From a virus: a DNA stretch of 34,632 bases. Shown piece by piece: positions 3,126 through 34,632 of the stretch. The stretch is taken from IMG/VR virus record IMGVR_UViG_3300037231_000299, positions 1 to 34,632 of that record. The stretch is one strand, 5' to 3'. The stretch's first letter is position 1, and the number at the start of each line of letters is the position of its first letter. The notes beneath the pieces were generated by a model, which worked only from the letters and a program-made list of their open reading frames with translations, did no database searches and had not been told where the DNA came from. The translations under genes and the position numbers were made by a program.

Positions 3126-6100
3126 TCACTGAATATAAATTTCAAAAACTTGCAGCACCGTCGCACCGCCGCCGTTCGCGGTTCCCGCAGGCTGGTTAGC
3201 GATGCCATTGACGGTGACCGTGCTGAGATTCGTCCCGCTGGGAATGGTGTAGGTGTACGTCGTGCTCGCGGTCGTCGCATCAATCGAGGCGACGGTGGAG
3301 ACGGTCGAACCGATCTTCACCGTGATGGAGCAGCTTCCAGCGGGCGAAGCGCCGACATTCGCAGCCGCTACGACCGACAGAGTCATCGCCGCCGTAGTAG
3401 TCACGTTGGCAAATCCACTCCAGGCGCAGTTCCCTGTCGAGTTCAAATAGGCGAACGTCGGGATGTAGCTCGGGTAAGTACCCGGCGATGTCTCGACGGT
3501 CCACCACTGCGCCACGACGTTCGCGTTCGTGAGGACATTGTTGTCATAGGCGTTGATGGGGTTCGTTGTCGTCGACGAGCCGGTGTCCGTGTACGTGGTC
3601 GGTTCATAGCGGATCGAGTAGGATGGCGTCGTGATGGTGCCGATCAGGAAGTATCCGACCTTGCCCAAGTAATCGCTCTGATTCTTCGTAGCGATCGGTG
3701 TAATCGCTCCACCGGCAAACGTGGGATCGACGTAGTAAACGTAATAGAACTGAGACTGCAACAGTCCTGTGATGGTGTAAGCACCGCCAGGCAAGCAAGC
3801 GACGGAGAGACCGCCGATTGTCGCGTCGAACGGAGCGACGTATATGTCCGCTGTGCCGCTGGACAGCGCCCATGCACTGAGAGTTCCGGCGGGCGCGACA
3901 TTCGCTCCGGTCGTTGCCGTCGACGAAAGCGTGATGCTGATTGTTACGCTGGCGACCTCAACCCATGCGCTCGTGGTGCCGTTCGGACGCACGGAGCGAA
4001 TCCTGAAGTTGTAGACCGAGCCAGCGACGAGCGGTCCGACGAATGCCTCGAATAGACCTACGTCAGCCGTGCCACCCGTCTGCCAGACGGAGGCCCCAGA
4101 CAACTGATATTGAATCTGAATCTCAGTGACAGAGATGTCCTGAGGAGCATCCCAAGACACGAGAGCCTGAGGGATGACAGTTCCGTCCGGGTTGATAATT
4201 GCAGTGCCAGCGGATGAGGTCACCGTCATCGTGGTCGGTGCAGCCGGAGTCGATGGATAGTAGCCAGTGCCGAGAGCGGGAATGTCCGTTGGCAGTAGCT
4301 CGTCCTCTTCACTCCACTCATAGACGGTCGGGTCGGTCGCATGTACGCTTACCGAGCATGAGAGAGCGATAGCGCCCTCATTGCCGTTCGCATCACGCAT
4401 CGGCTCCGCAACCAGTTGCAGTTTGTCGATTTCGAGATACGCGCTGCTCAGTCCCAGAATGCCGAAACTGAACTGCATGATGTCACACGGCTGACACTGC
4501 CAAGCCGTCATGCTCATTGGGAAGATTCCCGTTGCTTGAAAGCGATTTCGAAGCAGAGCAATCTTTGCGAGACGCTGGGCTTGAGTGATAGAAGGAACAC
4601 CACGGAGCGTTAGCTCATGAGGAACCTGAATGCCGCCATCTTGCACTAGCCATTCATTCGCCGAGTATCCGTGTAGAGTGTCTTGGGCGTACTGCGGGTA
4701 GTTCGTCGGCTGAAAGGCATAGTTCCACAGGTTCTCGGTCGTGCCGTAGTACCACCCGTTTGCGTCGTATAGATTTGAAAACGGAGGTACTGCCGAGTAC
4801 GGATAGTTGGGAGCCACGTAGGTGCCGGTCACGTAGTTGAACAGGTCTCTCGACTTTCGGTACGGAAGCCAGTTGAAATCTCCGACGACAGCGGATTCGT
4901 CAAGCGCAATGCTGGCTCCAACCCATGAAGCGGGGTAGATGTACCACTCACCGCCGACGCGGCTGTAGCGACCGCCAGCGGCTGGCATCATCATGGCGAG
5001 GACATCGCCGGGCGCGGTGCCGGTGTCGTAGTGGAGACACTGAACGTAACGAGCTTCTTCGCCTTGAGAACCTGTCACAGCTTCATCGCAGATGTTGGCC
5101 GCAGCGATTAGCTGAGTCTGATTGACGGTGTTGTCGTTCAAGCCGAACACCGGGTCTGTAATCACGTCTGCGACTTGCAGCGCCCAGTTCGTGGTGTAGA
5201 CGAGCGTGCCGCTACGAGGGTCAAGAATAGTGTTCTTGCCGTTAACCGTGATGCGAATTTCAGGGAGCGTCGAGAACTGAGCGGAGTCGTATCCGATGTT
5301 GACATACAGATACGCACAGCCAGCGAGCCTCGACGTGGATGCCCACACAGCGTCATTAGCTGATAGCGACGACATGTAGTCGCCCTCTGGCTGGTCACCG
5401 AAGCGTGCCTCGCAGAATACTTTGCCAGCGAAGTTGTAATGCGGCCCACCCGGTCCGATGCCATAGCCAAGTCCGTATCCGGGCTGTGATGGGTCTTGCT
5501 GGTCAGCAGCCGCAGTGCCACCGAACGTGTACGCGCCTTGGACATCGGCAACGGTCGCAGACGTGTATCCGCTGCCGCCCGTGCTCACAGTGATTGACCA
5601 AACAGGTGAGCCAATTGTGCCTGAGTTCGTTGCCCATGCCTCAGCACCGGAGCCGCCGCCAGTGTCGGAGATGCGGACGCGATAGCGAACTGGTTTGACA
5701 TTCGCGAATCCAGAGCCACCAGTCGCGGTGATGCCCGTGATGACGCCACCGCTGATGCTGACAACAGATGTCGGAGGATCGGACACAGTGCCGCATCCGA
5801 TGTTCGCGGGGCTTCCGCCGTCTTGCGACCAGTACACTTGGCGACCATCGAGATACAAGTTCTGAAATGCATCTATCTCATGCGTTGCGATTGCAATGAC
5901 GAAGTTGTAAACGTAGTTGCCGCCCGAACCACCAGCGCCCGTCGTTGACTGATAAACAATCGTCCCACCGACTCTCTGTGTGCCGAGGATGATTTGGCGA
6001 AGTCCCGCAGCCTGTCGGGTAGTGATGCCCATACCCCGGTTATCAGCAAGAGACTGAGCAAGAGCGGAGGCTTCGAGAGTGACGCCCAAACTGGCGGTCG

Positions 6101-18679: not shown

Positions 18680-19384
18680 TTAAAACTCTCTTGCTACAGC
18701 GATAGCCAGCTTGATGGCTCTAAGTTCATTGCAGTCACAGTTGGGGTCACTGCAATCTTCATCGCTGCAAATCTCGCAGCTTCCCGCTCGGCACTGGCCG
18801 CAACCACACTGGCAATCTGTCGGCGGCACATCGGTGCTTTCGTCATCGCTTGTTTCCGCCTTAGCTGCCAAGGCACGAACAACGCTGTCGGGCACGCCGT
18901 CAGGAAAGTTTCTAGCCTCGGATGAGGAGGCAGAGTAGGCCGGATAGGTCACTGGTGAGACATCCATGAGAGACACGCTCAGCAAAGTGCGTGTTGCCGG
19001 GGACGTGGTGTAATCCCACTTCTCATCGTTGGTGATGAATCCAAAACTGGACGAGTCAACATCACCGCGCTTCATGCTCGTCATCAGGTCTCTGGCTGCT
19101 TGCGTGTCTGGCGGGTCAATCTCATAGCGAAGACCTTTTGCATCCACGCTCAATCGCAGGGTGCCCGACTTGGTGCGACCGAGCACGGCATCAGGGTTGT
19201 GATTCCAAAGGGCGCGAACATCGTCAGTCAGAGTGTCATCGAAGGCATGAGGGTCGACCTTTTCGATGAAGCCCATGTCTTCTGACGGGGAGTTAAACAC
19301 CGCTGCATAGCCTGTAATCTTTGGTGAGTCTACGCCGTCCACAAGAACGGGCTGACTTGTATATCTACGTTCAATTGTGCTCAT
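18680..19384 (-). CDS. Prohead protease (HK97 type, U35) with cysteine-rich tail
   Basis: The 234-residue protein contains the herpesvirus/HK97 protease signature: TGYAAVFNSPS near the start, a candidate catalytic His62 in LWNHNPDAVLGR, the Ser in DVDSSSFGF (about 109-116), and SVSLMDVSPVTYPAY (about 136-150). It would process the capsid protein and its own scaffold during maturation. An unusual feature is the tail at about 191-218, which has nine cysteines in 28 residues (CQCGCGQC, CEIC, CSDPNCDC). The gene overlaps the portal stop by 14 bases. Confidence 0.85.
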   Translation of the reverse strand: MSTIERRYTSQPVLVDGVDSPKITGYAAVFNSPSEDMGFIEKVDPHAFDDTLTDDVRALWNHNPDAVLGRTKSGTLRLSVDAKGLRYEIDPPDTQAARDLMTSMKRGDVDSSSFGFITNDEKWDYTTSPATRTLLSVSLMDVSPVTYPAYSASSSEARNFPDGVPDSVVRALAAKAETSDDESTDVPPTDCQCGCGQCRAGSCEICSDEDCSDPNCDCNELRAIKLAIAVAREF

Positions 19385-21062
19385 TTGAAACCTCTAGCTC
19401 TGACAGGTGCTCTCTAGCTCTTGCCTCTGCGGAGTCTTCTTCAATCGCGTATACAACGCACCTCAGCAGCTTCTTGAATTCAGCGTCTGCGGTTGTCGTG
19501 CTGACTCTGGACTCAAGGCCGGTCATATATTTATCGACGGCTTTTTGTTCAGCGGTGCCGACCGTCTTGCTGCTTCTGAAGTAGTTGCCCACGGCTACAC
19601 ATACGGGTGAGAGCGTCTGTGCTATTGCAGCCGAATCTTTCTTCGACCTATTCTGCAATCTGCTGTAGGCATCGTTGAACAGAGGCTCAAACATCGACCG
19701 TGGTTGCTGCTTCGGTGGTTGCAACGCCTGAGCGATAATCTTGGTTGCGCCCTTCGCCTGTAGCACCTCAGGGTCGGTGTCTGTCTTGTCGTCGTCCGGA
19801 CTGGTGTCCTCAGGATCGTTGTCCGTCTCTTCACCCTCAGCGGCCTCAGTTGCGGTCACATAATTCAACGGCGTGATGTAGGCATCGCCGCCGGGCACAG
19901 GTTCGAGTCCAAGCTGTTCACGAATGTCATTAACAGAAAGCCATCCACCCATGCGGCCAGCGGTCTGCTTCGCTGTCATCGTGAGTGTGTCTGCTGCAAG
20001 CAGGGCGTCGAGATAGTGACGAATGACATACTGGTTGGCCGTGCGACCCATCGTGGGCAGCAGCTTGTACTGAAACTCTTGCTGAATCTTTACCAGCCAC
20101 GGCTGAAGCGAATAGGAGAGGAACTCTCTGTTCTGTGCCTCTACTGTGGACTTGAGAACTTTCTCCGTAGACCCAACCATGTAGCCGGGGACGCGCATAA
20201 ATGCGGCAATCTCGTCACGGGTGTACTTGGCGGTGGTCGTGTACTCAGCCAGCGCATTGTCGTTGGTCTCGACTGGAACAATCTTGACCCCGTTTGGAAG
20301 ATTGGCTACACGCCATGCGTTAGCACCTGTCGAAAGCGCCTCAACATCAAGTCGCATTTCGGTGAGTTCTTCCGGACTTAAGTCGTGGTCAGCTTGTAAA
20401 AAGAATGAGTTCCTTGCTCCATTCGCGTAGAATCGAGCACCAAACCGGGCTGCTACCAGAGCCAGCCCAAGACACTGCTGAGCTAGATGACTGAACGATG
20501 TCCCTTGCAAACCGTTGAATGTGAATCCAACAATGTGAAGCATGTCCTCCGACTTGATAGTTGCTGGCAACCCATCGGCGGTGTCGGTAGTTTCAAAGGC
20601 CAGAATGCCGTTCTTACGAACTGGCTTTGTCTTCCACGGGAGCAGCGGCCAAAGTGCAACAGGTCGGGCTCCGCTTGAATCACGTTCAATTTTTGCGTAT
20701 GCATTCGACCAACCAACCGCACCTGTCATCAACGTCTGGAAAAACACAGCGGCGGACATCTGAGGGTTGGGACGCTCAGTAAGCAAGTAGTACAGATAGT
20801 GCGATGGCGCGGGGCGCTGGCCGCGTAGCATCTTTTCATACACCCGAAGCGGCAAAGTTCCGACGCTCTCGGATAGAATCCTCACACACGTCAGATACGT
20901 GGGAACCTCAAAGGAAGTACGCTCATTAACCGTCTCGTTTGAGTCTGTGAATGTCCCCATGCCGAGGGAAGCGAGACCAGCGGCGAGAGACACCCCCGCT
21001 TGGTTGAGGTTGGGGGAATCTCGTTTCTCCGGTCGTGGGAGATTCAAACTAATAAAATTCAT
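19371..21062 (-). CDS. Portal protein (HK97 family)
   Basis: The 563-residue protein has the portal pattern FEVPTYLTCVRILSESVGTLPLRVYE (about 51-76), LTERPNPQMSAAVFFQTLMT, and DEIAAFMRVPGYMVGSTEK, then the SVNDIREQLGLEPVPGGD motif near residue 380. Twelve copies form the DNA entry channel. The C-terminal about 165 residues are an acidic, low-complexity linker followed by a helical domain, longer than a minimal HK97 portal. It starts 12 bases after the terminase stop. Confidence 0.88.
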   Translation of the reverse strand: MNFISLNLPRPEKRDSPNLNQAGVSLAAGLASLGMGTFTDSNETVNERTSFEVPTYLTCVRILSESVGTLPLRVYEKMLRGQRPAPSHYLYYLLTERPNPQMSAAVFFQTLMTGAVGWSNAYAKIERDSSGARPVALWPLLPWKTKPVRKNGILAFETTDTADGLPATIKSEDMLHIVGFTFNGLQGTSFSHLAQQCLGLALVAARFGARFYANGARNSFFLQADHDLSPEELTEMRLDVEALSTGANAWRVANLPNGVKIVPVETNDNALAEYTTTAKYTRDEIAAFMRVPGYMVGSTEKVLKSTVEAQNREFLSYSLQPWLVKIQQEFQYKLLPTMGRTANQYVIRHYLDALLAADTLTMTAKQTAGRMGGWLSVNDIREQLGLEPVPGGDAYITPLNYVTATEAAEGEETDNDPEDTSPDDDKTDTDPEVLQAKGATKIIAQALQPPKQQPRSMFEPLFNDAYSRLQNRSKKDSAAIAQTLSPVCVAVGNYFRSSKTVGTAEQKAVDKYMTGLESRVSTTTADAEFKKLLRCVVYAIEEDSAEARAREHLSELEVSNEHN

Positions 21063-21073
21063 TTACGCGGCCT

Positions 21074-22744
21074 TTAAAAGAACGTAATTCTCTGATACTT
21101 CCTCTTAATCGGGGGAGCCAGCATTGCTCTCGCCATCGCGATGAAGAGAGCCATTGCAACGTCGATTTTGTTGTTCGGCGTTTGTTTGTCGGGCATCGCA
21201 TAATTGCCCGACCGTGTTTCGTATGTGAGAACGTTGCCGATGCACCATGTCAGAAGCGGATTGCCGTCGAAGTGAAAGCGTCCATCGTAGACAGCCGCCT
21301 CTAGTTCCTTCATGGCGGGTGTCAGTGCTGCCGGAGAAGGTGGAACCTCGACGCGAGGAATTCCGCTCTCCTCACTCACTCTCTGGCTGTACTCATCCGC
21401 ATAACGGGCGTCGTATGCAAGCTCACTAATCTTGTACTTGGCAATATCAGCCAGCGTGTCGGCTTCGATGGTTGAGTAGTCCATCGAACTTCCACGAGTT
21501 GCCGTAAGCCAGCCTTGCTTGACCCAACCTTGATAGTGTTGATTCTCGGGAAGGTTGACCCGCGACTCGGGAAGATAAGCTTTGGCAAAGCAGTAGTAAT
21601 GCGGCCTATCGCCTAGTGAATCGTCTCTAAACAGCATCACGGTCGCAGACAAGTCCAACTTGCTTGCCAAGTCGGAGCCATGCCAGCAAGCCAGATGTAC
21701 GAGCGGCTCCGCTTTCAGAGCCGGGTCGGAGCGGGATTGCCACGCTGCCATGTTCATCCAGCCGTTCAAGGCTGTACACCAGACGTTCAGGTGCTTCGTC
21801 CGGAATATGTTTTGCTTCTGCGGATTCCTTACCGCCTCAGCTTGGTCGTCTAGTAACGCCTCTTCGTCGTTGGAGATACCCAAGTTCGGGTTCGCCATGA
21901 CGAGGGCATCGCGTGATGTCCAGTCGGTGTCATCATCAATGCCGTAGATAATGCCAAACAGCCGGTCGTTTTCTACCGTGCCGCTCAACACTAGCTCTAC
22001 GTCTTTTTGCTTCTGATGACACGGACCTTCAGTCGTGACGCCAGCAGTCGAGATTTCCAACAGCAGCGAGTTCTTACGTTTGTTAGCGCCTGTCCGGAAA
22101 CAGTCGTACTGAACCGCGTCTAATGCCTCATGCCATTCATCAAGAATGGCGCAGTAGATGCTGGCACCGTCCTTCGGATTACGAATGACAGGCTTGAAAC
22201 GAGAGCGTGTGGACTCCTGAAATATGCTCTTTGCTGCGGCTGTTATTCCGTAGCGTTTGAACAGTTCAGGGACTTGTTCGACCATCGCCTTTGCAGGTCG
22301 AAACACTTCACGAGCTTGGTCTTCCCCAGCAGCACCGCAATAGACTTCCGAACCCAATTCGCCATCGAAGAACGTCATCCATAACGCGATGATTGCCGCG
22401 AGGGGTGACTTGCCGTTCCCACGCGGGATGAGGATGAAGGCTTCCCGTACCATGCGGGTGCCCGCATCATCGACGAAGCCGAATATGCTGGCGAGGATGA
22501 AGCATTGAAAGTCTTCTAGCTTGAACCGCCGCCCTTGTAGCTTTCCTTTTTCATGGCGCTGCAATTCAGCGAAGCGACATACTTCGTTTGCAATGTCTGG
22601 TACGAAGAACCAGCGGCTATCCCTAGTTAGGAAGGCCAGAAATCTTTGGCACGCTTGGCGGACCCACTTGCAAGCTAAAATCTCGCCGCTCAGTACCCTC
22701 TGGGCGTACAAAATTGCGCGGTCGCTGTATTGCAAATTCGTCAT
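21074..22744 (-). CDS. terL: Terminase large subunit (HK97-like)
   Basis: The 556-residue packaging ATPase/nuclease has an N-terminal YAQRVLSGEILACKWVRQAC, a Walker A IPRGNGKS (106-113), a Walker B IYCAILDEWH (about 196-205, acidic residues D202/E203), and a nuclease region with SDLASKLDLSATVMLF (about 357-372). The C-terminal KIDVAMALFIAMARA is typical of the family. It pumps DNA into the prohead and cuts it at cos or pac. Its start lies inside the small-subunit gene, an overlap of 122 bases. Confidence 0.9.
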   Translation of the reverse strand: MTNLQYSDRAILYAQRVLSGEILACKWVRQACQRFLAFLTRDSRWFFVPDIANEVCRFAELQRHEKGKLQGRRFKLEDFQCFILASIFGFVDDAGTRMVREAFILIPRGNGKSPLAAIIALWMTFFDGELGSEVYCGAAGEDQAREVFRPAKAMVEQVPELFKRYGITAAAKSIFQESTRSRFKPVIRNPKDGASIYCAILDEWHEALDAVQYDCFRTGANKRKNSLLLEISTAGVTTEGPCHQKQKDVELVLSGTVENDRLFGIIYGIDDDTDWTSRDALVMANPNLGISNDEEALLDDQAEAVRNPQKQNIFRTKHLNVWCTALNGWMNMAAWQSRSDPALKAEPLVHLACWHGSDLASKLDLSATVMLFRDDSLGDRPHYYCFAKAYLPESRVNLPENQHYQGWVKQGWLTATRGSSMDYSTIEADTLADIAKYKISELAYDARYADEYSQRVSEESGIPRVEVPPSPAALTPAMKELEAAVYDGRFHFDGNPLLTWCIGNVLTYETRSGNYAMPDKQTPNNKIDVAMALFIAMARAMLAPPIKRKYQRITFF

Positions 22745-23177
22745 TCATTTCTTGCTTCTGCGGCTCTATTGAAAGTCGCGTCCGACTGGACGGCGTGAAA
22801 CCGAACTCGACAGCGAACTTGTGCATGAGTTCGAGCGCCTTGTTTGCAACGCCGACCCACGGAGCTTGAATCAGATAACCTGACTTGGAACTCTTTATGT
22901 ATTCGCCGAGACGCGTTATATCAGCCTCAGCCTTTACCCAACGCGCATATACTGTGCAGTAGGCGGCTAGTGATGCTCTATCGACTGATGTGAGCAACCC
23001 CATCGGGATTAGCTCTTTCGACACTCGCGTCCACTCACGTTTTGCAACGGCGTTGAGTTGAGATGGGCATGCCGGAATGCCTTCGGGCTTCGGTTCGTTC
23101 TTGTTCAAAGGCCGTTTGCCGGGATTTCCCGCTAGCTCTTTAATCGCGGTCGGCTTTGGCTTACGTCCTGCTGGCAT
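22623..23177 (-). CDS. terS: Terminase small subunit (P27 family)
   Basis: The 184-residue protein has the P27-family start GRKPKPTAIKELAGNPGKRPLN, then an HTH-like helical core with REWTRVSKELIPMGLLTSVDRASLAAYC and a C-terminal FGFTPSSRTRLS. It recognises the phage DNA and guides TerL. Its ATG directly follows the TAA of the formyltransferase-like gene. The last 40 or so residues are coded over the start of terL in another frame; this stretch is longer than the minimal family and is basic and Pro-rich. Confidence 0.85.
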   Translation of the reverse strand: MPAGRKPKPTAIKELAGNPGKRPLNKNEPKPEGIPACPSQLNAVAKREWTRVSKELIPMGLLTSVDRASLAAYCTVYARWVKAEADITRLGEYIKSSKSGYLIQAPWVGVANKALELMHKFAVEFGFTPSSRTRLSIEPQKQEMNDEFAIQRPRNFVRPEGTERRDFSLQVGPPSVPKISGLPN

Positions 23178-23882
23178 TTAATACTCCGAGCGCTTGTCTT
23201 GCCCGTTGCCGTCTAGCCGCTCCACTTCATACCGAAGGCCGCTCTCGCCAAGCTGCGGCAACTCAGGCCGGAATAATGGCGGCCTGTCGAATGACGGCTC
23301 CCATGTCGCGCACTGCTCATCCTGCGGCACTCTGACCGCGAGTCCGCTATCGATGTCGGCTAGCGCCTTCAGTAGGAGACGGATGCCAAGTGGGGCAAGC
23401 TGCCCGCGCCAAAGGGTCTCCGCTGTTTCACCGGGGCGAATAAATACGTGCTGTTGAGCCGCTATCGGCCCGCTGTCGATGCTGTCGGTCAGCCAGTACA
23501 CGGAGCCGCCCGTAATCCTGTCGCCGCCGTGTAGCGCCCAACGGACCGCGTCTCGGCCCCTGTGAAGGGGAAGGAGGGATGGGTGATAGCCAATTGCTCC
23601 GAATCGAGACCGCGCCCGCGTCTTGCGGCCTATGAAGTCGTGACTGTGAGCCGCGACGATGATGTCCGTGCCACGCGGCAGTGACTCAGCCCTGACTTCC
23701 GGTTGCCATGGAATCCCAAGCCGCTCCGCCGTTGCGCGTACACGGTCAAACTTAGGCGACCCATCCGTGGACAGGCTCCCCGAGAATGCCGGTGATGATA
23801 CGCCGAGGACTCTGTACTGTTTGGCGACCGCCTCAAGGACGCTTGCGCCAAACTGTTTTTGACCACAGAGGAAAACATTCAT
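23178..23882 (-). CDS. Formyltransferase-like protein (Fmt/GART fold, atypical active site)
   Basis: The 234-residue protein fits the N-terminal formyltransferase domain, which uses 10-formyl-tetrahydrofolate. There is a start MNVFLCGQKQFGASVLEAVA, the motif GYHPSLLPLHRGRDAVRWAL (98-117) and GGSVYWLTDSIDSGPIAAQ (about 125-143). His100 and Asp136 of the usual Asn-His-Asp triad are present, but the Asn place (N-x-H) is Gly98. There is no C-terminal tRNA-binding domain as in host Fmt, so methionyl-tRNA is an unlikely substrate. Its ATG overlaps the ABC-GNAT stop by 4 bases (ATGA), and the terS ATG follows its TAA. It likely acts on a small amine or nucleotide/base as part of the cassette (inference). 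Confidence 0.72.
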   Translation of the reverse strand: MNVFLCGQKQFGASVLEAVAKQYRVLGVSSPAFSGSLSTDGSPKFDRVRATAERLGIPWQPEVRAESLPRGTDIIVAAHSHDFIGRKTRARSRFGAIGYHPSLLPLHRGRDAVRWALHGGDRITGGSVYWLTDSIDSGPIAAQQHVFIRPGETAETLWRGQLAPLGIRLLLKALADIDSGLAVRVPQDEQCATWEPSFDRPPLFRPELPQLGESGLRYEVERLDGNGQDKRSEY

Positions 23883-25027
23883 TGCTTAGCTGTTTCCCCG
23901 TGGTATCTGAATCCCTGCACGGCTCTGAAGTGACCGCCGTAACCTGTGCCAGCGCCGACCGGCTCTTTTCCGAGCTTGCGCTGGCTCCTTGACGTTGACT
24001 TGGTGCTGCTCACCTTGTTAGCCCCATAAAGGATGGCCGATACCTGACGCCATTTTGGATCGCGCCGCAGACCGGCGCATAAGCCGGGGTGGGATGTATG
24101 AAAGATCGTTGTAAGGGGCTTGCCCCATTTGTTTCCGCCGCGTCGCCACATCTCGCAGATGGCATTGAGAAACCGCATACCGACGCCAGCGCCCTGCCAC
24201 TCAGGCATGACGACTAGGCGCGTCCCGCGTCCCTCGAAACCGCCCTTGCCCTTATTCATGGTGCACATTGCCATGTGGCACACCGGCTCACCGTCAACAG
24301 AGCCAACGAAGTATTGAGCGGCGACAGGGAGATGAAGGTCTAAATAGTAATGCGGCTTAAATAGCGGCCAGTAACTTGCATCCGTCTGCTGAATTTCGAG
24401 GTCAAACTTTGGCCGTCGCCAAAGTGACCCCCTTGAGAACTTGCCGGTTCCCGTGTCGAAAACCCAGTCGGGTTCGATCCACCCGATTACGTCGTAATGA
24501 CAGGACAGCAATACACACTGCCCGCCTGTACGTCTCCACGCCTTCTGGAAGGCTAATGCTCCAAACTTAGCTATTTGCCGGTCAACGACCGAGGTGAACT
24601 CATCGACGACGATGCTGGCTGGTGACTCGCTGATGATCCTTGCGAGGTCAGCGCGGAACCGCTCTCCATTGGACAGCGCCTGGTAAGGACGGAGCCAACA
24701 GGGAACTGAGCCAAGGCCTACCGTAGCGAGAGCGCCGGTGACAGCGTCGAAGTCACCCTGAGGGGCGATAGCATCGACTATAGGTTTATCTGTCGGCCAT
24801 CCCTCGGGTTGATAAAGGGCGTCGTGGCCAAACACCTTGCGGCCTAAAGAGGTCTTACCGGAGCCGGAGGGGCCGACGATCACGCCAATCTTCCAGTTAC
24901 CGTCGTCAATGTCTAGTTGCGCGTCAAGGTTAAACTCAGCGCCCGACTCCGCGTTGAATAGGGATTTGACACGAGCCGCCCGGTAGCTGTTGAAGTCTTT
25001 GCAGGAGTTGCGTACTTCCAATTTCAT
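23879..25027 (-). CDS. ABC-type ATPase fused to GNAT acyltransferase domain
   Basis: The 382-residue protein has two domains. Residues about 1-200 form an ABC ATPase: Walker A GPSGSGKT (52-59), a signature LSNGERFRAD (118-127), a Walker B SIVVDEF (138-144) and a switch His177 (LSCHYD). Residues about 210-375 have a GNAT fold, with the acetyl-CoA loop VMPEWQGAGVG (273-283) and HTSHPGLCAGL (310-320). No transmembrane segments are present, so it is not a transporter. GNAT-fold proteins of phages include Mu Mom, which modifies adenine in DNA. The combination with a ParB-like and a formyltransferase-like protein suggests nucleotide or DNA modification. Its ATG immediately follows the ParB-like stop. 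Confidence 0.8.
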   Translation of the reverse strand: MKLEVRNSCKDFNSYRAARVKSLFNAESGAEFNLDAQLDIDDGNWKIGVIVGPSGSGKTSLGRKVFGHDALYQPEGWPTDKPIVDAIAPQGDFDAVTGALATVGLGSVPCWLRPYQALSNGERFRADLARIISESPASIVVDEFTSVVDRQIAKFGALAFQKAWRRTGGQCVLLSCHYDVIGWIEPDWVFDTGTGKFSRGSLWRRPKFDLEIQQTDASYWPLFKPHYYLDLHLPVAAQYFVGSVDGEPVCHMAMCTMNKGKGGFEGRGTRLVVMPEWQGAGVGMRFLNAICEMWRRGGNKWGKPLTTIFHTSHPGLCAGLRRDPKWRQVSAILYGANKVSSTKSTSRSQRKLGKEPVGAGTGYGGHFRAVQGFRYHGETAKQ

Positions 25028-25582
25028 TTAAGTCACCACGACCTTACATTCGAGGCCGCCCGCTGTCAGGCGGTCGTATACGTCCCTCTGGTCGGCTTCA
25101 TCTTTGCAGATGACGATGACGCCGTATTGAGCCTTGTAACTGCTATCAGAGGGCGCGGTTTCCGAGACGGAGTCATCTACGACCCCCAAAATGGCCGCAA
25201 TCTCGTCCGTAGAGAAGAACGGCTGCAAGCTCAGGTCCGGGATGAGGTCTTTGAGGACATCCGCGTCCCAGTCAAGACCAAGCTCACTGGTTCTGTTGTC
25301 CGCAATCGCTAGAGCGCGGGCTTTGGGATCGTCGATGGACAGGTCCGTGCGTTGCACGGCCACAAGCTGAGTGCCATCAGTCTGGACGACGATGACATCA
25401 TCGATTCCGGCTGCTGACGCCTGCTGAGCAGTCGTATTGCCAGCGATGAGGTTGCCGTCACGGTCTATAAGTACGGAGCGTCCGGCACCGAACTGCTCAA
25501 GTGACTTGGCTACAGACTCACGCCCGCGTTTGGTTCCCCGATTGCTATTCTTCGTGTCTTGTTTTAGTTCAGAAAGCTTCAA
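25028..25582 (-). CDS. ParB/Srx-like domain protein
   Basis: The 184-residue protein has a ParB-like core (about 15-105): KRGRESVAKSLEQFGAG, then SVLIDRDGNLIAGNTT (36-51) and KARALAIADNRTSELG. A second part (about 145-184) has an alpha/beta segment YGVIVICKDEADQRDVYDRL with a C-terminal KVVVT strand. No partner ParA, central HTH for parS, or parS-like repeats are seen, so plasmid or chromosome partition is unlikely. ParB/Srx domains in phages often occur with DNA modification or nucleotide-binding genes. It begins the coupled block leading to terminase and follows a 134-base non-coding gap. Confidence 0.78.
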   Translation of the reverse strand: MKLSELKQDTKNSNRGTKRGRESVAKSLEQFGAGRSVLIDRDGNLIAGNTTAQQASAAGIDDVIVVQTDGTQLVAVQRTDLSIDDPKARALAIADNRTSELGLDWDADVLKDLIPDLSLQPFFSTDEIAAILGVVDDSVSETAPSDSSYKAQYGVIVICKDEADQRDVYDRLTAGGLECKVVVT

Positions 25583-25716
25583 AAATACCCCACCCTGAAT
25601 TTCGCGACCGTGAAAATTTGACTGGCATGCGGTCTAGTTTTGCCAGTGCCGATGCGATTTTTACCCCGCCCTACCCTGCATGAAAATCGTCGATGTCAGA
25701 ACGACATATCTATAGC
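25583..25716 (-). other. Candidate cos/terminase recognition region
   Basis: A 134-base gap between the HNH and ParB-like genes. It holds two similar C-rich blocks on the plus strand (TACCCCACCCTGAA near 25586 and TACCCCGCCCTACCCTG near 25662), an inverted repeat ACTGGCA/TGCCAGT (25621-25627 and 25641-25647), and a second inverted repeat ATGTC/GACAT (25693-25697 and 25703-25707). In HK97-like phages the cos site lies between the HNH gene and terS, which fits. No cohesive-end sequence can be proven from the sequence alone. Confidence 0.4.
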
Positions 25717-26064
25717 TCACTCACCACGGGCAGTCCTAGCAGAGTGATGCGACTCACACAGCGGAATGATGTTGCTGCGGTCATACTGCAACTCAGGAAA
25801 GTCTCTGACTTTCTTCGGATGATGCAGTTGCTCAGCCGTGCGGTAAATGTTCGCTGCTAAGCAATCCCGACACAGAACAAACTCAGGTTCTCTCATAAGA
25901 GATGCTCTGAACTTCGACCATCTGTAATCGTAGCCGCGACTGGCACTGGTGCCGCGCCACCGATCTGCTTGCCATCGTTGGCTGCTGTGACCGTCACACC
26001 AGCCGTCGTCCGTCAGTGCTGGGCATCGTGGATGCTTACAGGGCCTCTTTGGCGCGTCGGGCAT
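25717..26064 (-). CDS. HNH endonuclease (packaging-associated)
   Basis: The 115-residue protein has N-terminal zinc-type cysteines and histidines (CKHPRCP, CDGH) and a C-terminal HNH nuclease motif (QLHHPKKVRDFPELQYDRSN then IIPLCESHHSAR), with CRDC upstream as the second zinc knuckle. HNH proteins beside terminase in HK97-like phages are needed for cutting at cos and for packaging. The gene order HNH, gap, packaging genes fits this, though the coupled cassette now separates it from terS. Confidence 0.85.
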   Translation of the reverse strand: MPDAPKRPCKHPRCPALTDDGWCDGHSSQRWQADRWRGTSASRGYDYRWSKFRASLMREPEFVLCRDCLAANIYRTAEQLHHPKKVRDFPELQYDRSNIIPLCESHHSARTARGE

Positions 26065-26067
26065 TTG

Positions 26068-26562
26068 TTACAGAGGAAACTCAGTCCATTGGACGCTGGC
26101 ATACAGCGCATTAACCCCAGATGGATTTGAAGTGAATATCAATGCATAGCCGCCCGGTGGGATAGCGAGGCTTCCATTGAGGTCGATAATCTGTGTGGCC
26201 ATCACCTCATCGGTTAGGCCGGTTGCAAAAATGTGCGTTACGACGGGAGCGGTGGGAAGAGTCGCTGCGGAATCGCAAAGCCCATAGCCCGTCTGTGAGC
26301 CAAGCATGACAGGAACTACAGACAACGGGGTCGTATGAACAACATCTGTTAAAGATGTTCCCACGGCGAAACCGATGGCGGCAGCGACGTTAAAAGGATT
26401 AACGAATGAAAAGCCAACACGCTCGATGACTAGTCGTACCTGCGAGGCATTTGGATTGGAAAGAATCAACCCCTGTGCGGCAGTGGTAAGCCCAGAACTG
26501 GTCGTGACTCCGGCTTGGTTTGCTGCGCAATATGCCGGAAATGAAAATGAATTGGGTATCAC
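26068..26562 (-). CDS. Beta-rich protein of unknown function, possible virion decoration
   Basis: The 164-residue protein starts at a GTG and is rich in Ala, Val, Thr and Ser with an even beta-strand pattern. It contains two motifs typical of jelly-roll-like surface proteins: VRLVIERVGFSF and LAIPPGGYALIFTSNPSG, and it ends ASVQWTEFPL. No membrane or export signal is seen. It opens the structural part of the late operon, 3 bases before HNH. A head decoration or minor structural role is plausible from context only. Confidence 0.6.
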   Translation of the reverse strand: MIPNSFSFPAYCAANQAGVTTSSGLTTAAQGLILSNPNASQVRLVIERVGFSFVNPFNVAAAIGFAVGTSLTDVVHTTPLSVVPVMLGSQTGYGLCDSAATLPTAPVVTHIFATGLTDEVMATQIIDLNGSLAIPPGGYALIFTSNPSGVNALYASVQWTEFPL

Positions 26563-26599
26563 TGGCTGAATCCCGTCTAACTCTCTTCGGACGTGTAAT

Positions 26600-26636
26600 G
26601 GGCGGGAAACTCGATTTGGCGTCTCGTGACCCGCCC
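26600..26636. repeat. GC-rich inverted repeat upstream of the first structural gene
   Basis: GGGCGGG (26600-26606) and CCCGCCC (26630-26636) can pair around a 23-base loop in the 149-base gap between the sigma-like gene and the next late gene. It may be a terminator for the sigma transcript or part of the late promoter region. No T-run is present. The rest of the gap is AT-rich near 26700. Confidence 0.35.
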
Positions 26637-26711
26637 GTGGTCTGGAGTCTCAACATTGACCGGCTATTTATTAAGTGCAGCAAGAGGGAAAACCGGACAC
26701 ATTTTTGAAAT

Positions 26712-27212
26712 TTAATTTAGGGTCGCACTGAGCCGACGCAATTTCTTACGGGCGGATGACTCGCTGAGTCCGATCTGACGCGCAGCCGCTTTGATGGTGT
26801 GACCGGACAATATGAGGTCGGCCAGACGGCGTTCTGTCGAGTCATTCGGGATGAGCCGAAGAACAACATTCACGACAGCCTCGGCGTCTACTTCAGTGAC
26901 ACTTTCGATTTGCCCGATGGCATCCTCACACAGTTCAAGCTTGTTCGCCCGGTCGATGTGGCGGAATTCCTCAAGGAGGCGGTGCTTGGCTATCGAATGG
27001 AACCATGTCGAGAACTTGCTACGAGACGGCTGATACTTGTCCAGACAGCGCCATGCCGACGCTACGGCTTCGCTCGCAGCGTCCTCTGCGTCACGGAGAT
27101 GAAAGGAGTAGGCCAAGGCCAGCGCGTAGCTCCTGCACAACGTCAGGAGCGACGAGAGTGTTTCTGGGGTGGGATTGTCACGGTGAAGGGCGTAAGCGGA
27201 GTTGATGTCCAT
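26712..27212 (-). CDS. ECF-like sigma factor
   Basis: The 166-residue protein has sigma region 2 (DAEDAASEAVASAWRCLDKY, then KFSTWFHSIAKHRLLEEFRH, about 41-85), a linker, and a region 4 HTH (DLILSGHTIKAAARQIGLSESSARKKLRRL, about 131-160). This is the full two-domain layout of an ECF sigma factor. As the first gene of the late block on the same strand it is a good candidate for switching on late transcription. No anti-sigma gene is seen beside it; the divergent membrane protein at 27255 is a possible partner, unproven. Its divergent spacing to that gene is only 42 bases. Confidence 0.8.
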   Translation of the reverse strand: MDINSAYALHRDNPTPETLSSLLTLCRSYALALAYSFHLRDAEDAASEAVASAWRCLDKYQPSRSKFSTWFHSIAKHRLLEEFRHIDRANKLELCEDAIGQIESVTEVDAEAVVNVVLRLIPNDSTERRLADLILSGHTIKAAARQIGLSESSARKKLRRLSATLN

Positions 27213-27254
27213 ACTATCGGGGGCGGTAGTCTGTAAACTGTAAGCAACTCAAGG

Positions 27255-28184
27255 ATGAGGTACAAGTGCATGGCGCTGTTGAGAAGCATAGCAATGCTGT
27301 ATTTACTCGGTACATCGTTGTTGTTTGGGCAGAGTCATACTCTAAAACTGAAGACGAACCCAACACCCCCACCACCAACGCATGTGGTTATAGACCCTCC
27401 GGTCCCGGTTGTTGATACTACTCCGTCAAAACCTCCGGTACAGAGCATTCCGCCTGAGAAGCCACTACCATGGCCCGTCAGACCAGAGTTCTTAATCGTA
27501 TGGGTCACACTGGGATATGCAGTTATTGCGTGGTACACCTTAAGAGCCATCGCTAGACAAGCCAACACGATGGATACACAGGCCACTGATGCCCGTGCTG
27601 CCAATGCAGCCACTGCGGCGGCTACTCAGACGACGCTTGATGCGCTGAGAGAGCAGACTGCCCAACTGAAAAGACAGGTACAGGCCAGCCACGATGGGCT
27701 GAGGGCATGGGTTGGAATCGAGCTACAAGAAAACGAGCCCCCTCCCATGACGTTCGGCCTAAGCGCAATTGAACAAATTAATCTTTCGATGGTTCCAACG
27801 CCCTCTAGATTCGTCTGGAAAATGAAAAACTATGGTCAGACCCCGGCCTTCATTCAAAGAATGGGGTCAACGCACACTCGCACGGAATTGCCAACTCTGG
27901 AGCCTATGTCAATATCGAGAATGCTGCCACTTGTCACGTTTCTGGGGTCAGGTAAAGAATTGGTGAGTCCTATCGACATTTCAGAAACCGAGTTGCGGGA
28001 GATAGTGGCTCGAAAGACGCACTGGCGGATTCTAATCAAGCTAGAGTATCTGGACGCATTCGATAAGACGCAGACGCATGAGACGACGGGTAGCTTTCAT
28101 TATTATGTTCAGCAGCATTGGAAAGACCCTGTTAAGACCGGCTTCTATCAGGAGATTGACCCCACCATGAACCACAACACATAG
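27255..28184 (+). CDS. Exported/membrane protein with Pro-rich linker and coiled coil
   Basis: The protein is 309 residues from the ATG at 27255, or 304 from the ATG at 27270, which places the signal-like LLRSIAMLYLLGTSLLFGQS at the very start. A Pro-rich linker (about 30-75) follows, then a membrane segment (EFLIVWVTLGYAVIAWYTL, about 78-96), an Ala/Thr/Gln-rich coiled coil (about 100-145), and a beta-rich C-terminal domain with WVGIELQ and the FVWKMKNYGQTPAFI segment. The C-terminal domain, after the second segment, would lie in the cytoplasm. The function is unknown; the divergent position beside the sigma gene suggests an accessory lysogeny or defence role. Confidence 0.65.
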   Translation: MRYKCMALLRSIAMLYLLGTSLLFGQSHTLKLKTNPTPPPPTHVVIDPPVPVVDTTPSKPPVQSIPPEKPLPWPVRPEFLIVWVTLGYAVIAWYTLRAIARQANTMDTQATDARAANAATAAATQTTLDALREQTAQLKRQVQASHDGLRAWVGIELQENEPPPMTFGLSAIEQINLSMVPTPSRFVWKMKNYGQTPAFIQRMGSTHTRTELPTLEPMSISRMLPLVTFLGSGKELVSPIDISETELREIVARKTHWRILIKLEYLDAFDKTQTHETTGSFHYYVQQHWKDPVKTGFYQEIDPTMNHNT

Positions 28185-28210: not shown

Positions 28211-28963
28211 TTAAGGCTTCCACAACACAACCGTCCGCGTTCCAACCATCGTTCCTGACTCCTTGAACGCTCCGACCTTATTGGGCTCATTCATCATTGC
28301 GTAATCGTCGAGTAGCTCCCGGAACGCCTTAGCCTTCTTATCTTGGCGATACTCCCAGCCACCACCGCCGATAGCGGCTAGACGGCCACCGGGTTTCAAA
28401 AACTTAAATGCGTGAGTGATGTGGTCGCAGTCGCCTTGAGACTCAAACGGCGGATTCATGCAAATCCTGTCATAGATGGGTTGAGGCTCCATCGACAGGA
28501 AGTCAGATTGGATGGGCTCATACCCCTTAGCTCGTAGCTCCATGCAGAGTTTGGGCTGAATCTCAATCAGAGTCAGCTTGGCGTCAGGATGAAACTCCCG
28601 GATGACATCGGCTAAGCCACCGCTGCCAGCGGAAGGTTCCAAGACGGATAGACCGCCTTCCCAAATGTCAGCCAAACCGACGACGTATTCAGCTAGTCCT
28701 CGTGGTGTGGGAAAGTATCCGTTCTTGCTCAGCAACAGGACTTCTCCAGAGGAGACGATGCTCTGGATTTGCTCAGTGGGATCTGAAACAAAGACATGAC
28801 CCTTCTTGCCCTTGTTCCATTTGCCGCCGCATTCCTTGAGTATCTTGTCTACTTCGGTGTAGGCGGTGCGGTCGAGTGTTACGGGAAGGACGAGGATGTT
28901 GCTGTTTATTGTGGCTGACGCCAGAGCGTCTATTGCTGTGCTGCTGATTTTGGTGGTTCGCAT
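28211..28963 (-). CDS. N6-adenine-type DNA methyltransferase
   Basis: From the ATG at 28963, with TAGGAG about 7 bases upstream, the protein is 250 residues; a longer frame runs upstream without a ribosome binding site. The N-terminal about 75 residues have a GGKWNKGKKGHVF segment. The Rossmann core carries motif I VLEPSAGSGGLADV (107-120), an acidic residue after TLIEI, and motif IV ICMNPPF (167-173), the NPPY-type site that marks amino methylation of adenine (or cytosine). No nuclease partner is coded next to it, so it is probably a solitary phage methyltransferase guarding its DNA. It converges on the exported-protein gene. Confidence 0.8.
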   Translation of the reverse strand: MRTTKISSTAIDALASATINSNILVLPVTLDRTAYTEVDKILKECGGKWNKGKKGHVFVSDPTEQIQSIVSSGEVLLLSKNGYFPTPRGLAEYVVGLADIWEGGLSVLEPSAGSGGLADVIREFHPDAKLTLIEIQPKLCMELRAKGYEPIQSDFLSMEPQPIYDRICMNPPFESQGDCDHITHAFKFLKPGGRLAAIGGGGWEYRQDKKAKAFRELLDDYAMMNEPNKVGAFKESGTMVGTRTVVLWKP

Positions 28964-29014
28964 GGCTGCTCCTAAAGGAGCGGCCTGTAGTCGAAAACTC
29001 AGGGATAACTTTCG

Positions 29015-29677
29015 GTGGTAGAATGGCTGCAAATGAATGACGCAGACGAACTGGAACTCGAACGGTGCCCCCATTGCGGCGTGGCCAAGCCGCGTATAAC
29101 TCGGTTATGGTTACATGAAACCGCTCAGCATGATAACCGCAACAGGAGAAGGTGGACAACCTACGTCTGCCACACCTGCGGGGGCGTTGTTCTCACTACC
29201 GGGCACCCGTCGAATCAGTATGTCACCGAGATGTGGCCCCAGGTGGCGTCCGTTTCTGACGCGGTACCGGAACGAGCAAGGCACTTCCTAACTCAAGCCC
29301 TTGCAAGCCTACATGCCCCATCGGGAGCGGTGATGCTTGTAGCTTCCTCTGTCGATGCAATGCTCAAGGAAAAGGGGCTCAAAGGAGGCTCCCTTTACGC
29401 CCGGATAGGCGAAGCAGCGACTTCCCATCTCATCACGGAAGAAATGAAGGCGTGGGCTCATGAAGTACGACTTGAGGCTAATGATCAGCGTCATGCGGAT
29501 GAAGATGCCTCCTTGCCTACACAAGATGATGCCCGCCGGGTCATAGAATTCGCTCAAGCGTTGGCTCAGTTCCTGTTCGTCCTACCGGCGATGGTGAAGA
29601 CCGGGAGGAAGACACCGCCAGCGGCCACGACTACATCAAAAGCTGCTTCATCTGTTCCGGGAATGACTCCCTACTAA
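29015..29677 (+). CDS. Zinc-ribbon DUF4145-like protein
   Basis: The 220-residue protein (GTG at 29015 with AGGGA 9 bases upstream; an ATG at 29033 is also possible) has a zinc ribbon (CPHC and CHTC, about residues 18-56) and a C-terminal helical DUF4145-like domain (about 100-190), with VMLVASSVDAMLKEKGL, ARIGEAATSHLITEEMKAWAHEVRLEANDQRH and ARRVIEFAQALAQFLF. DUF4145 occurs in restriction enzymes and in stand-alone, often defence-linked proteins. It is divergent from the methyltransferase with only 51 bases between starts, so the pair may share control. The exact function is unknown. Confidence 0.7.
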   Translation: MVEWLQMNDADELELERCPHCGVAKPRITRLWLHETAQHDNRNRRRWTTYVCHTCGGVVLTTGHPSNQYVTEMWPQVASVSDAVPERARHFLTQALASLHAPSGAVMLVASSVDAMLKEKGLKGGSLYARIGEAATSHLITEEMKAWAHEVRLEANDQRHADEDASLPTQDDARRVIEFAQALAQFLFVLPAMVKTGRKTPPAATTTSKAASSVPGMTPY

Positions 29678-33334: not shown

Positions 33335-33517
33335 ATGGGGGACTATACTCACGACGACGTATTGACGCTTGACGAGGCCGCCGCGCTATTGCGCTGCCAC
33401 CCTGTCACGGTGAAGCGTCAGGCCGCTCTGGGTAAAATCCCCGCCAAAAAACTAGGAAGCCTCTGGCGTTTTTCGCGCCAGAGGCTTATTGAGTGGTTGC
33501 AGTCGAGTGATGTTTAG
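33335..33517 (+). CDS. xis: Excisionase-like HTH protein
   Basis: The 60-residue protein has the HTH_17 (MerR/excisionase) form LTLDEAAALLRCHPVTVKRQAALGKIPAKKLGSLWRF followed by a helix ending IEWLQSSD; the long segment is one continuous domain (about 10-47). Such proteins bend DNA and steer the integrase to excision. It converges on the integrase, and their stop codons overlap (33514-33517). Part of its coding sequence doubles as a hairpin that can terminate integrase transcripts. It could alternatively be a small regulator of another process. Confidence 0.75.
   Translation: MGDYTHDDVLTLDEAAALLRCHPVTVKRQAALGKIPAKKLGSLWRFSRQRLIEWLQSSDV
33446..33487 (-). terminator. Rho-independent terminator of integrase, within xis
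   Basis: The perfect 12-bp arms AAGCCTCTGGCG (33457-33468) and CGCCAGAGGCTT (33476-33487) surround a 7-base loop. On the minus strand the hairpin starts 27 bases after the integrase stop and is followed by CCTAG and six T (33446-33451). This is the best classical terminator in the window. The same bases encode GSLWRFSRQRL of Xis. Confidence 0.8.
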
Positions 33518-34632
33518 CCGATAAGCTTCTCGACTAGCTGGTCGTGCGCCTTCCTCATATCATCCGTCAGAGCAGCCCCGTAAATGTTCATGGTCGTAGC
33601 GATGTCGCTGTGACGAAGCAAGTCCTTCTGAGTGCCCACGGCAGCGCCACCGCTGGACAGCCACGAGCGGCAAGCGTGACGCAGAGAGTGAAACCCGACA
33701 TTCCCTATGCCAAGCTCCTTGGCGACCGGCCTCAATCCCTTTTGCAGAAGCATCGACGCCGAGCGCGGTCCACCCGTTCGTGGGGAAGGGAACAGCCACT
33801 CACTGTCCTTGGTCTTTGGCTTGTACGCCAAGAGAGCATCTAAGATGGGCTTGGACAGCGGGAGTGGAGCTTCTGACGACTGTGTTTTCGTTTCACCCAG
33901 TTTCCCCGCCGTGAACTTGCGGACGATGGAAATCGTCTTTGCCTTTTCGTCGATGTCTTCCCACTTGAGAGCCAGCAGTTCGGAGATTCTGAGCCCATAG
34001 GCCCCCAGAAGCAGCACCATGATGTTGAGCGGCTCCGGGAGATTCGCCAGCAGCTTCTTGAAGTCGTCTACAGAGAGTGGCGTGATTTTCTTCTGTCGCT
34101 TGCTGACGCCCTTGAGCTTGATTAGCGTCATCGGATTTGCTTCCATGGCAGGGATGTACTCGTGCAGCGCGGCCAGGCGGAAGCAGACAGACATCACCGT
34201 CCGGATGTTCCTCTTGGAGGAGGGACTCAAGTCGAGCGCCTGTATCCAGTTGTTGATAACCAGAGGGCGCATCTCACGCAACGGGGTCTGGGAGAACTGG
34301 TCTTCGATGTAGTCGCGCAGCAGATACTCAGACGATTTCTTAGATGAATGTTGAAGAGTGGGAAGGTGCTCCGTACGATACAGCGTCGTGATAGCCCCGA
34401 ACTTGGCGTCTGTTCTCACCCCGGCTGTGCCTGAGTTGATTTGAGAGACCGTGAGTTCGATGGCCTTCCGCACATCCTTTTCAGTCTTGTATTTGGCCGG
34501 GTCGTAAATCTCCGTACGCTGATGCCGCTTGCCGTCCTTCATCTCAGAGAAGCGCACTTCCCATACGTATCCCTTGGCTCTTTTAACTCGTCGGATGCTA
34601 CCATTCTGGTAGCGTGCTCGCTTCGTTTTCAT
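33514..34632 (-). CDS. int: Tyrosine recombinase integrase
   Basis: The 372-residue protein has an N-terminal arm-binding domain (about 5-65, with KGYVWEVRFSE), a core-binding domain (about 75-180) and the catalytic domain. The active residues are visible: Arg215 (GLRISELLALKW), Lys249 (TKTQSSEAPLP), His315 and Arg318 (HSLRHACRSW), His341 (LLRHSDIATTMNIY) and Tyr351. The protein is complete if the ATG on the last base of the window is its start; its promoter and probably one att site lie beyond. It integrates and excises the prophage. Its 3' end overlaps the xis stop. Confidence 0.92.
   Translation of the reverse strand: MKTKRARYQNGSIRRVKRAKGYVWEVRFSEMKDGKRHQRTEIYDPAKYKTEKDVRKAIELTVSQINSGTAGVRTDAKFGAITTLYRTEHLPTLQHSSKKSSEYLLRDYIEDQFSQTPLREMRPLVINNWIQALDLSPSSKRNIRTVMSVCFRLAALHEYIPAMEANPMTLIKLKGVSKRQKKITPLSVDDFKKLLANLPEPLNIMVLLLGAYGLRISELLALKWEDIDEKAKTISIVRKFTAGKLGETKTQSSEAPLPLSKPILDALLAYKPKTKDSEWLFPSPRTGGPRSASMLLQKGLRPVAKELGIGNVGFHSLRHACRSWLSSGGAAVGTQKDLLRHSDIATTMNIYGAALTDDMRKAHDQLVEKLIG

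Follow-up and report, generated by a model that had tools for sequence, protein, structure and literature searches.

A three-gene block directly upstream of the terminase genes

The window analyzed here is a whole virus record of 34,632 bases (IMG/VR record IMGVR_UViG_3300037231_000299) from a temperate tailed phage, with genes for an integrase, an HK97-type capsid protein, a prohead protease, a portal protein, and the large and small terminase subunits (TerL and TerS). Directly upstream of terS-terL, and with them on the minus strand, lies a cassette of three genes encoding a ParB-like protein, a fusion of an ABC-type ATPase with a GNAT acyltransferase (ABC-GNAT), and a formyltransferase-fold protein (Fmt) (Table 1). 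An earlier note on this DNA described the trio as coupled to the terminase genes by immediate or overlapping junctions, and our analysis confirmed the successive junctions as TAA-ATG, ATGA, TAA-ATG, and the terS/terL overlap. The range that it gave for the block, 22623 to 25582, contains the trio and also takes in terS itself. The annotated neighbors of the ParB-like gene are an HNH nuclease gene and ABC-GNAT.

Table 1. Features of the cassette and of the genes around it in the window (aa, amino acids; nt, nucleotides)
Feature	Position	Strand	Details
terL (terminase large subunit)	21074-22744	minus	122-nt overlap with terS; PF20441 1e-36, PF03354, phrog_9 4e-151
terS (terminase small subunit)	22623-23177	minus	ATG immediately after Fmt TAA; PF05119 5e-28, phrog_83 2e-47
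Fmt (formyltransferase-fold gene)	23178-23882	minus	234 aa; ATGA overlap with ABC-GNAT; TAA stop
ABC-GNAT gene	23879-25027	minus	382 aa; ATG immediately after TAA of ParB-like gene
ABC-type ATPase domain	~residues 1-204 of ABC-GNAT	minus	Walker A, LSNGE signature, Walker B DE, and H-loop His conserved
GNAT acyltransferase domain	23879-24412 (~residues 206-382)	minus	PEWQGAGVG acyl-CoA motif
ParB-like gene	25028-25582	minus	184 aa; TTG start, TAA stop
ParB/Srx-like N-terminal domain	~residues 1-140 of the 184-aa protein	minus	phrog_620 3e-24
C-terminal ~36-aa domain of ParB-like protein	25031-25138	minus	YKAQYGVIVICKDEADQRDVYDRLTAGGLECKVVVT; phrog_28816, residues 149-182, 4.5e-12
Integrase	33514-34632		

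ABC-GNAT matched phrog_11143 (5e-143), PF00005 (1e-5), and PF13508 (1e-4), and the ATPase residues G52-S54-G55-G57-K58, L118-S119-G121, D142-E143, and H177 are invariant across 115 ABC-GNAT sequences. We define clade A as the close ABC-GNAT group (at least 55% identity) and the distant group as those below ~40%; the window protein falls in a distinct clade, with ~35% identity to the ABC-GNATs outside it. Residues fixed in clade A and absent from most distant-group members include His251, His310, His366, and Arg368, and His313 varies outside clade A but is fixed within it. An AlphaFold model of the whole protein (predicted local distance difference test [pLDDT] score of 88.6) matched only ABC ATPases when searched against the PDB with Foldseek. 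The GNAT half modelled alone (pLDDT 90.4) had acetyl-coenzyme A (acetyl-CoA)-type GNATs as its best PDB matches, many of them CoA bound, and its closest folds are the protein N-acetyltransferases Naa60, Naa50, and RimI. Membership in a known defense system was considered and rejected, as PADLOC returned only weak partial ATPase matches (mad3, 1e-7 over 38 residues) and a ParB/methyltransferase match.

Fmt matched PF00551 (6e-19) and phrog_9240 (7e-53), a family that PHROGs places among auxiliary metabolic genes. Its profile best matched, in the PDB, the hydrolase domain of 10-formyl-tetrahydrofolate dehydrogenase (ALDH1L1; 1s3i, 8e-35), followed by Met-tRNA formyltransferase (5e-22), ArnA (1e-15), HoxX/HypX (8e-13), and PurN (1e-12), and another alignment gave the same order at the top. 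The HxSLLPxxxG motif is present (GYHPSLLPLHRG), as are His100, Ser102, and Asp136, of which the His and Asp are invariant in relatives and the Ser is kept. In FMT, ArnA, and GART, a catalytic Asn precedes this motif, whereas 10-formyl-tetrahydrofolate dehydrogenase has Ile104 there, and replacing Ile104 with Asn leaves <10% of its activity (PMC4388273). The same position, two residues before the His, is Gly98 in the window protein; it is Gly, Ser, Ile, or Val in all 146 linked Fmt proteins (Asn in 0 of 146) and Gly in 80 of 80 proteins of a second set. Fmt thus resembles the amine formyltransferases FMT, ArnA, and PurN in the motif, His, and Asp but not in the catalytic Asn, which is absent from Fmt and ALDH1L1 alike; with ALDH1L1 it shares the HPSLLPxHRG motif and the His, Ser, and Asp, although it corresponds only to the formyl-removing domain of that enzyme and has Gly in place of Ile at the Asn position. 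One domain was recognized in the 234 residues, and Pfam found neither the carrier nor the aldehyde dehydrogenase domain of the dehydrogenase.

The dehydrogenase domain passes its formyl group to a phosphopantetheine thiol (PMC8748788), and the N-terminal domain of HypX, which has the same fold, is proposed to transfer formyl to the thiol of CoA, making formyl-CoA (PMC6802093); HypX differs in having an enoyl-CoA-hydratase-like domain of its own and in making CO for hydrogenase. Because the catalytic Asn is absent and Fmt resembles these thiol-directed domains, its acceptor is, judging from the sequence, more likely a thiol than an amine. Without the amine-formylase Asn, Fmt more likely feeds the GNAT than formylates DNA itself, and the GNAT, with its gene overlapped by that of Fmt, would be the obvious user of a formyl thioester.

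The ParB/Srx-like domain is common to some phage DNA methyltransferases (phrog_498 "DNA methyltransferase," 3e-19; PADLOC MTase_II, 2e-8). ParB partition proteins also have a central helix-turn-helix DNA-binding domain, and no Pfam helix-turn-helix was found in the 184-aa protein at E values up to 1.

Recurrence and co-inheritance of the cassette

ABC-GNAT relatives are present in 67 phage records, and 170 clade-A loci were gathered from IMG/VR, bacterial genomes, and phage records, with neighboring Fmt and ParB counted by use of trimmed domains. Of the 162 clade-A loci whose downstream stretch is at least 650 nt, 143 have Fmt directly beside ABC-GNAT in the same orientation, and two more have it within 700 nt (145 of 162). 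The reverse search gave the same picture: among the best 80 Fmt loci from IMG/VR, ABC-GNAT lies immediately upstream in 75 and the other 5 end at a contig edge, so that every Fmt locus with room has it (75 of 75). Pairwise divergences of ABC-GNAT and Fmt are correlated (Mantel r = 0.70, 141 pairs, 0 of 1,000 permutations), and absence of Fmt is scattered over the tree, with 13 changes for 17 cases. Outside clade A, Fmt occurs in 0 of 117 distant viral loci; a single Fmt-bearing locus in the set of distant loci (IMG/VR L283), a candidate for a distant ABC-GNAT with Fmt, was ruled out as such because the tree places it in clade A. Of the 6 lineages (counted by hand) in the phage collection that have a close ABC-GNAT, 5 also carry Fmt, which is present in only 53 of 50,697 phage records (hypergeometric P for co-occurrence, 6e-15). 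The same gene order was found in many phages and prophages, and genomic loci with an adjacent Fmt come from hosts of at least 7 phyla. The search for co-conservation that the earlier note had proposed found the three genes together often rather than rarely, with the complete trio in 72 loci and a trio with only the C-terminal piece of the ParB-like protein in 57 more. The block that it took to be one cassette is real, recurrent, and functionally linked, and its genes are inherited together.

The constant upstream partner of ABC-GNAT is the ~36-aa C-terminal domain, and the ParB part, which had been counted as a member of the trio, is optional. The C-terminal domain is fused to the ParB-like domain in 80 of the 170 clade-A loci and has its own ~50-aa gene in 72, where it precedes ABC-GNAT, mostly by an ATGA overlap; phrog_28816, for example, matches at 1e-21 the 49-aa product of such a gene in phage Komp_PAO1_1. 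The fused and separate forms are explained by only 5 changes on the tree.

Two observations concern other copies of these genes. IMG/VR contig L085 (1141-4706) carries two ABC-GNATs in the same orientation, first one of clade A followed by Fmt (2301-2825) and then a distant-clade copy (3561-4706). In Gordonia Sourvirus phages, Fmt is gene 3 (L007, 1805-2452) and is labelled "tRNA-methyltransferase" in several deposited genomes, which looks like a misannotation.

After Fmt, the commonest recognizable neighbors are terminase genes, of diverse types, and terminase also follows most distant-clade loci. Loci with the separate small gene tend to follow tail-fiber genes, and the genes before a fused locus tend to be those for HNH proteins, primases, or regulators. 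The coupling to packaging, which would have timed the cassette to the late phase, is therefore not general, as many relatives sit after tail-fiber genes; a promoter scan of window positions 19000 to 27400 found none and so provides no evidence on timing. Mu Gam is present in 10 of 33 genomes with separate-gene loci and in 0 of 16 with fused loci. Matched by contig coordinates, the Gam gene appears to lie ~20 to 33 kb away from the cassette on four contigs, those of L118, L136, L142, and L174, as expected for the opposite end of a Mu-like prophage. The order in the Mu-like phage Komp_PAO1_1 is tail-fiber assembly gene, small genes, ABC-GNAT, and Fmt, and the Mu genome ends with tail fibers, invertase, com (62 aa), and mom.

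Mu Mom, which has been placed in the GNAT superfamily (PMC7824862), had been offered as a parallel. Both proteins have the GNAT fold, and some Mu-like relatives of the cassette lie after tail-fiber genes, in the com-mom position and behind a small overlapping gene. However, Mom has neither an ABC ATPase nor a donor-making partner, the window cassette lies beside terminase, and membership in the Mom family was rejected at the level of sequence, where the GNAT domain shows no detectable link to Mu Mom (hhalign probability, 0.4%).

A second set of putative donor enzymes is found in a distant branch of ABC-GNAT. In Rhodococcus phage Jace (L009, 6074-7185), ABC-GNAT is followed by genes for aspartate decarboxylase (PanD; PF02261, 2e-33) and for a protein resembling class III CoA-transferases; both genes occur in 17 related loci and the CoA-transferase alone in 6 more (23 in all). 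Neither gene is present in the window. The active-site residues of both enzymes are recognizable in the Jace-type genes: the decarboxylase keeps the Gly-Ser of the cleavage site and the active-site Lys, Arg, Thr, and Tyr, whose roles we take to be those known for PanD, and the transferase has formyl-CoA transferase as its only PDB match, its FDxxAQA motif aligning with YDxxVQA there. The type of supplier tracks the ABC-GNAT tree (11 changes, compared with 46 to 51 after shuffling). Most ABC-GNATs of the distant group are accompanied by neither Fmt nor CoA-transferase. Our main argument that these genes would supply a donor is that one and the same slot is filled by two unrelated sets of enzymes, each of which could in principle make an acyl-CoA.

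Two further arrangements were seen among distant relatives. One distant ABC-GNAT has a gene for another pyruvoyl enzyme, S-adenosylmethionine decarboxylase (PF02675, 4e-17), just downstream, which might supply a substrate. An ASCH-domain protein (PF04266) is encoded after the GNAT in phages of Streptococcus and Oenococcus whose ABC and GNAT genes are separate (L010, 7092-7469; L020, 6097-6489); ASCH proteins can bind or hydrolyze modified nucleosides, and this one may be a reader of modified bases.

Proposed acylation of phage DNA and competing explanations

From the observed gene order, co-inheritance, domain identities, and active-site makeup, we infer a substrate, an acyl group, a role for the ABC half, and a biological benefit. 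The GNAT half would use a CoA thioester to acylate an amino group on a base of the phage DNA, and the ABC ATPase half would, driven by ATP, grip or remodel the DNA or gate access to it. The small C-terminal domain of the ParB-like protein would act as the constant partner of ABC-GNAT, with the ParB domain as an optional DNA-targeting addition. Fmt would not act on DNA; it would take formyl from 10-formyl-tetrahydrofolate and load it onto the thiol of CoA, or onto an equivalent thiol, and the GNAT would use the resulting formyl thioester as its donor. The likely product would be an N-formylated exocyclic amine (N6 of adenine or N4 of cytosine) that conceals the DNA from nucleases of the host. 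In the Jace-type branch, aspartate decarboxylase and the class III CoA-transferase would supply beta-alanyl-CoA instead.

DNA is favored as the substrate because the ParB-like domain also occurs in DNA methyltransferases, because some relatives occupy the com-mom position of Mu, and because acylation of DNA bases by ABC-GNAT has been predicted independently (PMC7824862, section 3.4.7). We consider it probable that ABC-GNAT acylates phage DNA. The fuller proposal, in which it N-acylates that DNA with a formyl thioester from Fmt as donor, is more tentative, and we give it slightly less than an even chance. A cassette for an N-acyl or formyl-type modification of DNA, as the earlier note had it, is still the best reading, with the changes that Fmt more likely feeds the GNAT, that ParB is optional, and that coupling to packaging is not general.

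Several points weigh against this proposal. In clade A, ~10% of the ABC-GNATs lack an Fmt neighbor, and no Fmt was found anywhere in the viral records of L021 and L059 (~42 kb); formyl is not proven as the donor, because these Fmt-less proteins show no obvious difference in conserved GNAT residues. Fmt could simply hydrolyze 10-formyl-tetrahydrofolate, a reaction of which the dehydrogenase domain is capable in isolation. At the Asn position, most phage Fmt proteins have Gly rather than the Ile of the dehydrogenase, and the cassette has no carrier-protein domain. The Jace-branch CoA-transferase, at ~225 aa, is about half the usual length of ~400 aa. Locus counts come from best-hit lists that include near-identical contigs and are not counts of independent events. 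No DNA modification data for any carrier phage were found in the literature, and the paper on Leptospira phages LE3 and LE4 holds no restriction or modification data.

The clade-A phages without Fmt, the many distant ABC-GNATs with neither Fmt nor CoA-transferase, and the canonical acyl-CoA motif of the GNAT would all fit an enzyme that N-acetylates DNA with host acetyl-CoA, leaving Fmt to act separately, either on the group once it is in place or on some other target. We regard this as unlikely, since Fmt is restricted to a single clade of ABC-GNAT, with no instance found apart from it, lacks the amine-formylase Asn, and has its slot filled by a CoA-thioester enzyme in the second branch. The target might also be a protein, such as terminase, host RNA polymerase, or a defense protein, rather than DNA; phage GNATs often act on proteins, Naa60, Naa50, and RimI are the nearest folds, and the cassette often adjoins terminase. 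However, GNAT folds are too general to call a substrate, the ParB-like domain is common to DNA methyltransferases, and the neighboring terminases are of diverse types while other loci follow tail-fiber genes, which makes a protein target quite unlikely in our view.

Some GNAT-fold enzymes use aminoacyl-tRNA, and Met-tRNA formyltransferase is the second-best match of Fmt, so that the GNAT might transfer an aminoacyl group from aminoacyl-tRNA, with Fmt formylating the aminoacyl-tRNA or the adduct as in the formation of formylmethionine (fMet)-tRNA. Yet tRNA formyltransferase needs the Asn that is missing here (PMC4388273), phage Fmt matches mainly the N-terminal catalytic domain, and the GNAT retains its acyl-CoA motif; we hold this possibility to be very improbable. 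The same low probability is given to metabolic cargo, in which Fmt would drain or recycle folate one-carbon units in infection and its linkage to ABC-GNAT would be merely operonic. The listing of phrog_9240 under auxiliary metabolic genes and the formyltransferase genes of cyanophages speak for it, whereas linkage across hosts of at least 7 phyla and in two different genome positions, together with the correlated divergence of Fmt and ABC-GNAT, speaks against it.

For the proposed acylation of DNA by ABC-GNAT, the closest precedent is the prediction by the Aravind laboratory, which cites its own earlier work, that ABC ATPase-GNAT proteins form a phage DNA-acyl modification system (PMC7824862, section 3.4.7). 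The architecture is the same, and the example given in that section, from Tenacibaculum phage pT24, is matched by the window ABC-GNAT; the section itself mentions neither a formyl/CoA donor gene nor the small partner related to the ParB C terminus. No previous description of the donor module came up in a literature search whose reach did not extend to key papers. The cassette is a variant of this predicted system with a distinctive donor module.

More broadly, ABC-GNAT may be a modular platform for DNA N-acylation, with a constant ATPase-acyltransferase core and small partner and with exchangeable suppliers of acyl-CoA (formyl-CoA in clade A and beta-alanyl-CoA in the Jace type), giving different base modifications in different phages, N-formylated and N-beta-alanylated bases included; we offer this generalization as a possibility and think it somewhat doubtful. 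To our knowledge, neither kind of base is known as a programmed DNA modification. Formyl-folate normally donates for nucleotide and fMet synthesis; if the proposal holds, it would also feed DNA modification by way of a formyl thioester, and phage enzymes of a widespread family would add differing acyl groups according to the adjoining supplier gene. This would account for uncharacterized terminase-adjoining genes in many phages, would predict which phages carry which base, and could yield enzymes for DNA labelling. Phages already in collections (Gordonia Sourvirus, Rhodococcus phage Jace) would allow a direct test.

Other genes near the cassette in the window

An Rfam scan of the whole window gave no match. 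On the minus strand, a 164-aa open reading frame (26068-26562) without a Pfam or PHROG match lies between the HNH gene and a gene for a sigma-70 region 2 protein (26712-27212; PF04542, 6e-13). The latter heads the late-strand block and is perhaps a late-gene activator. Upstream of the late region, also on the minus strand, is a gene for a 287-aa methyltransferase-like protein (28211-29074; phrog_15406 "DNA methyltransferase," 1e-50; MTS, 3e-5), possibly responsible for a second DNA modification of this phage.

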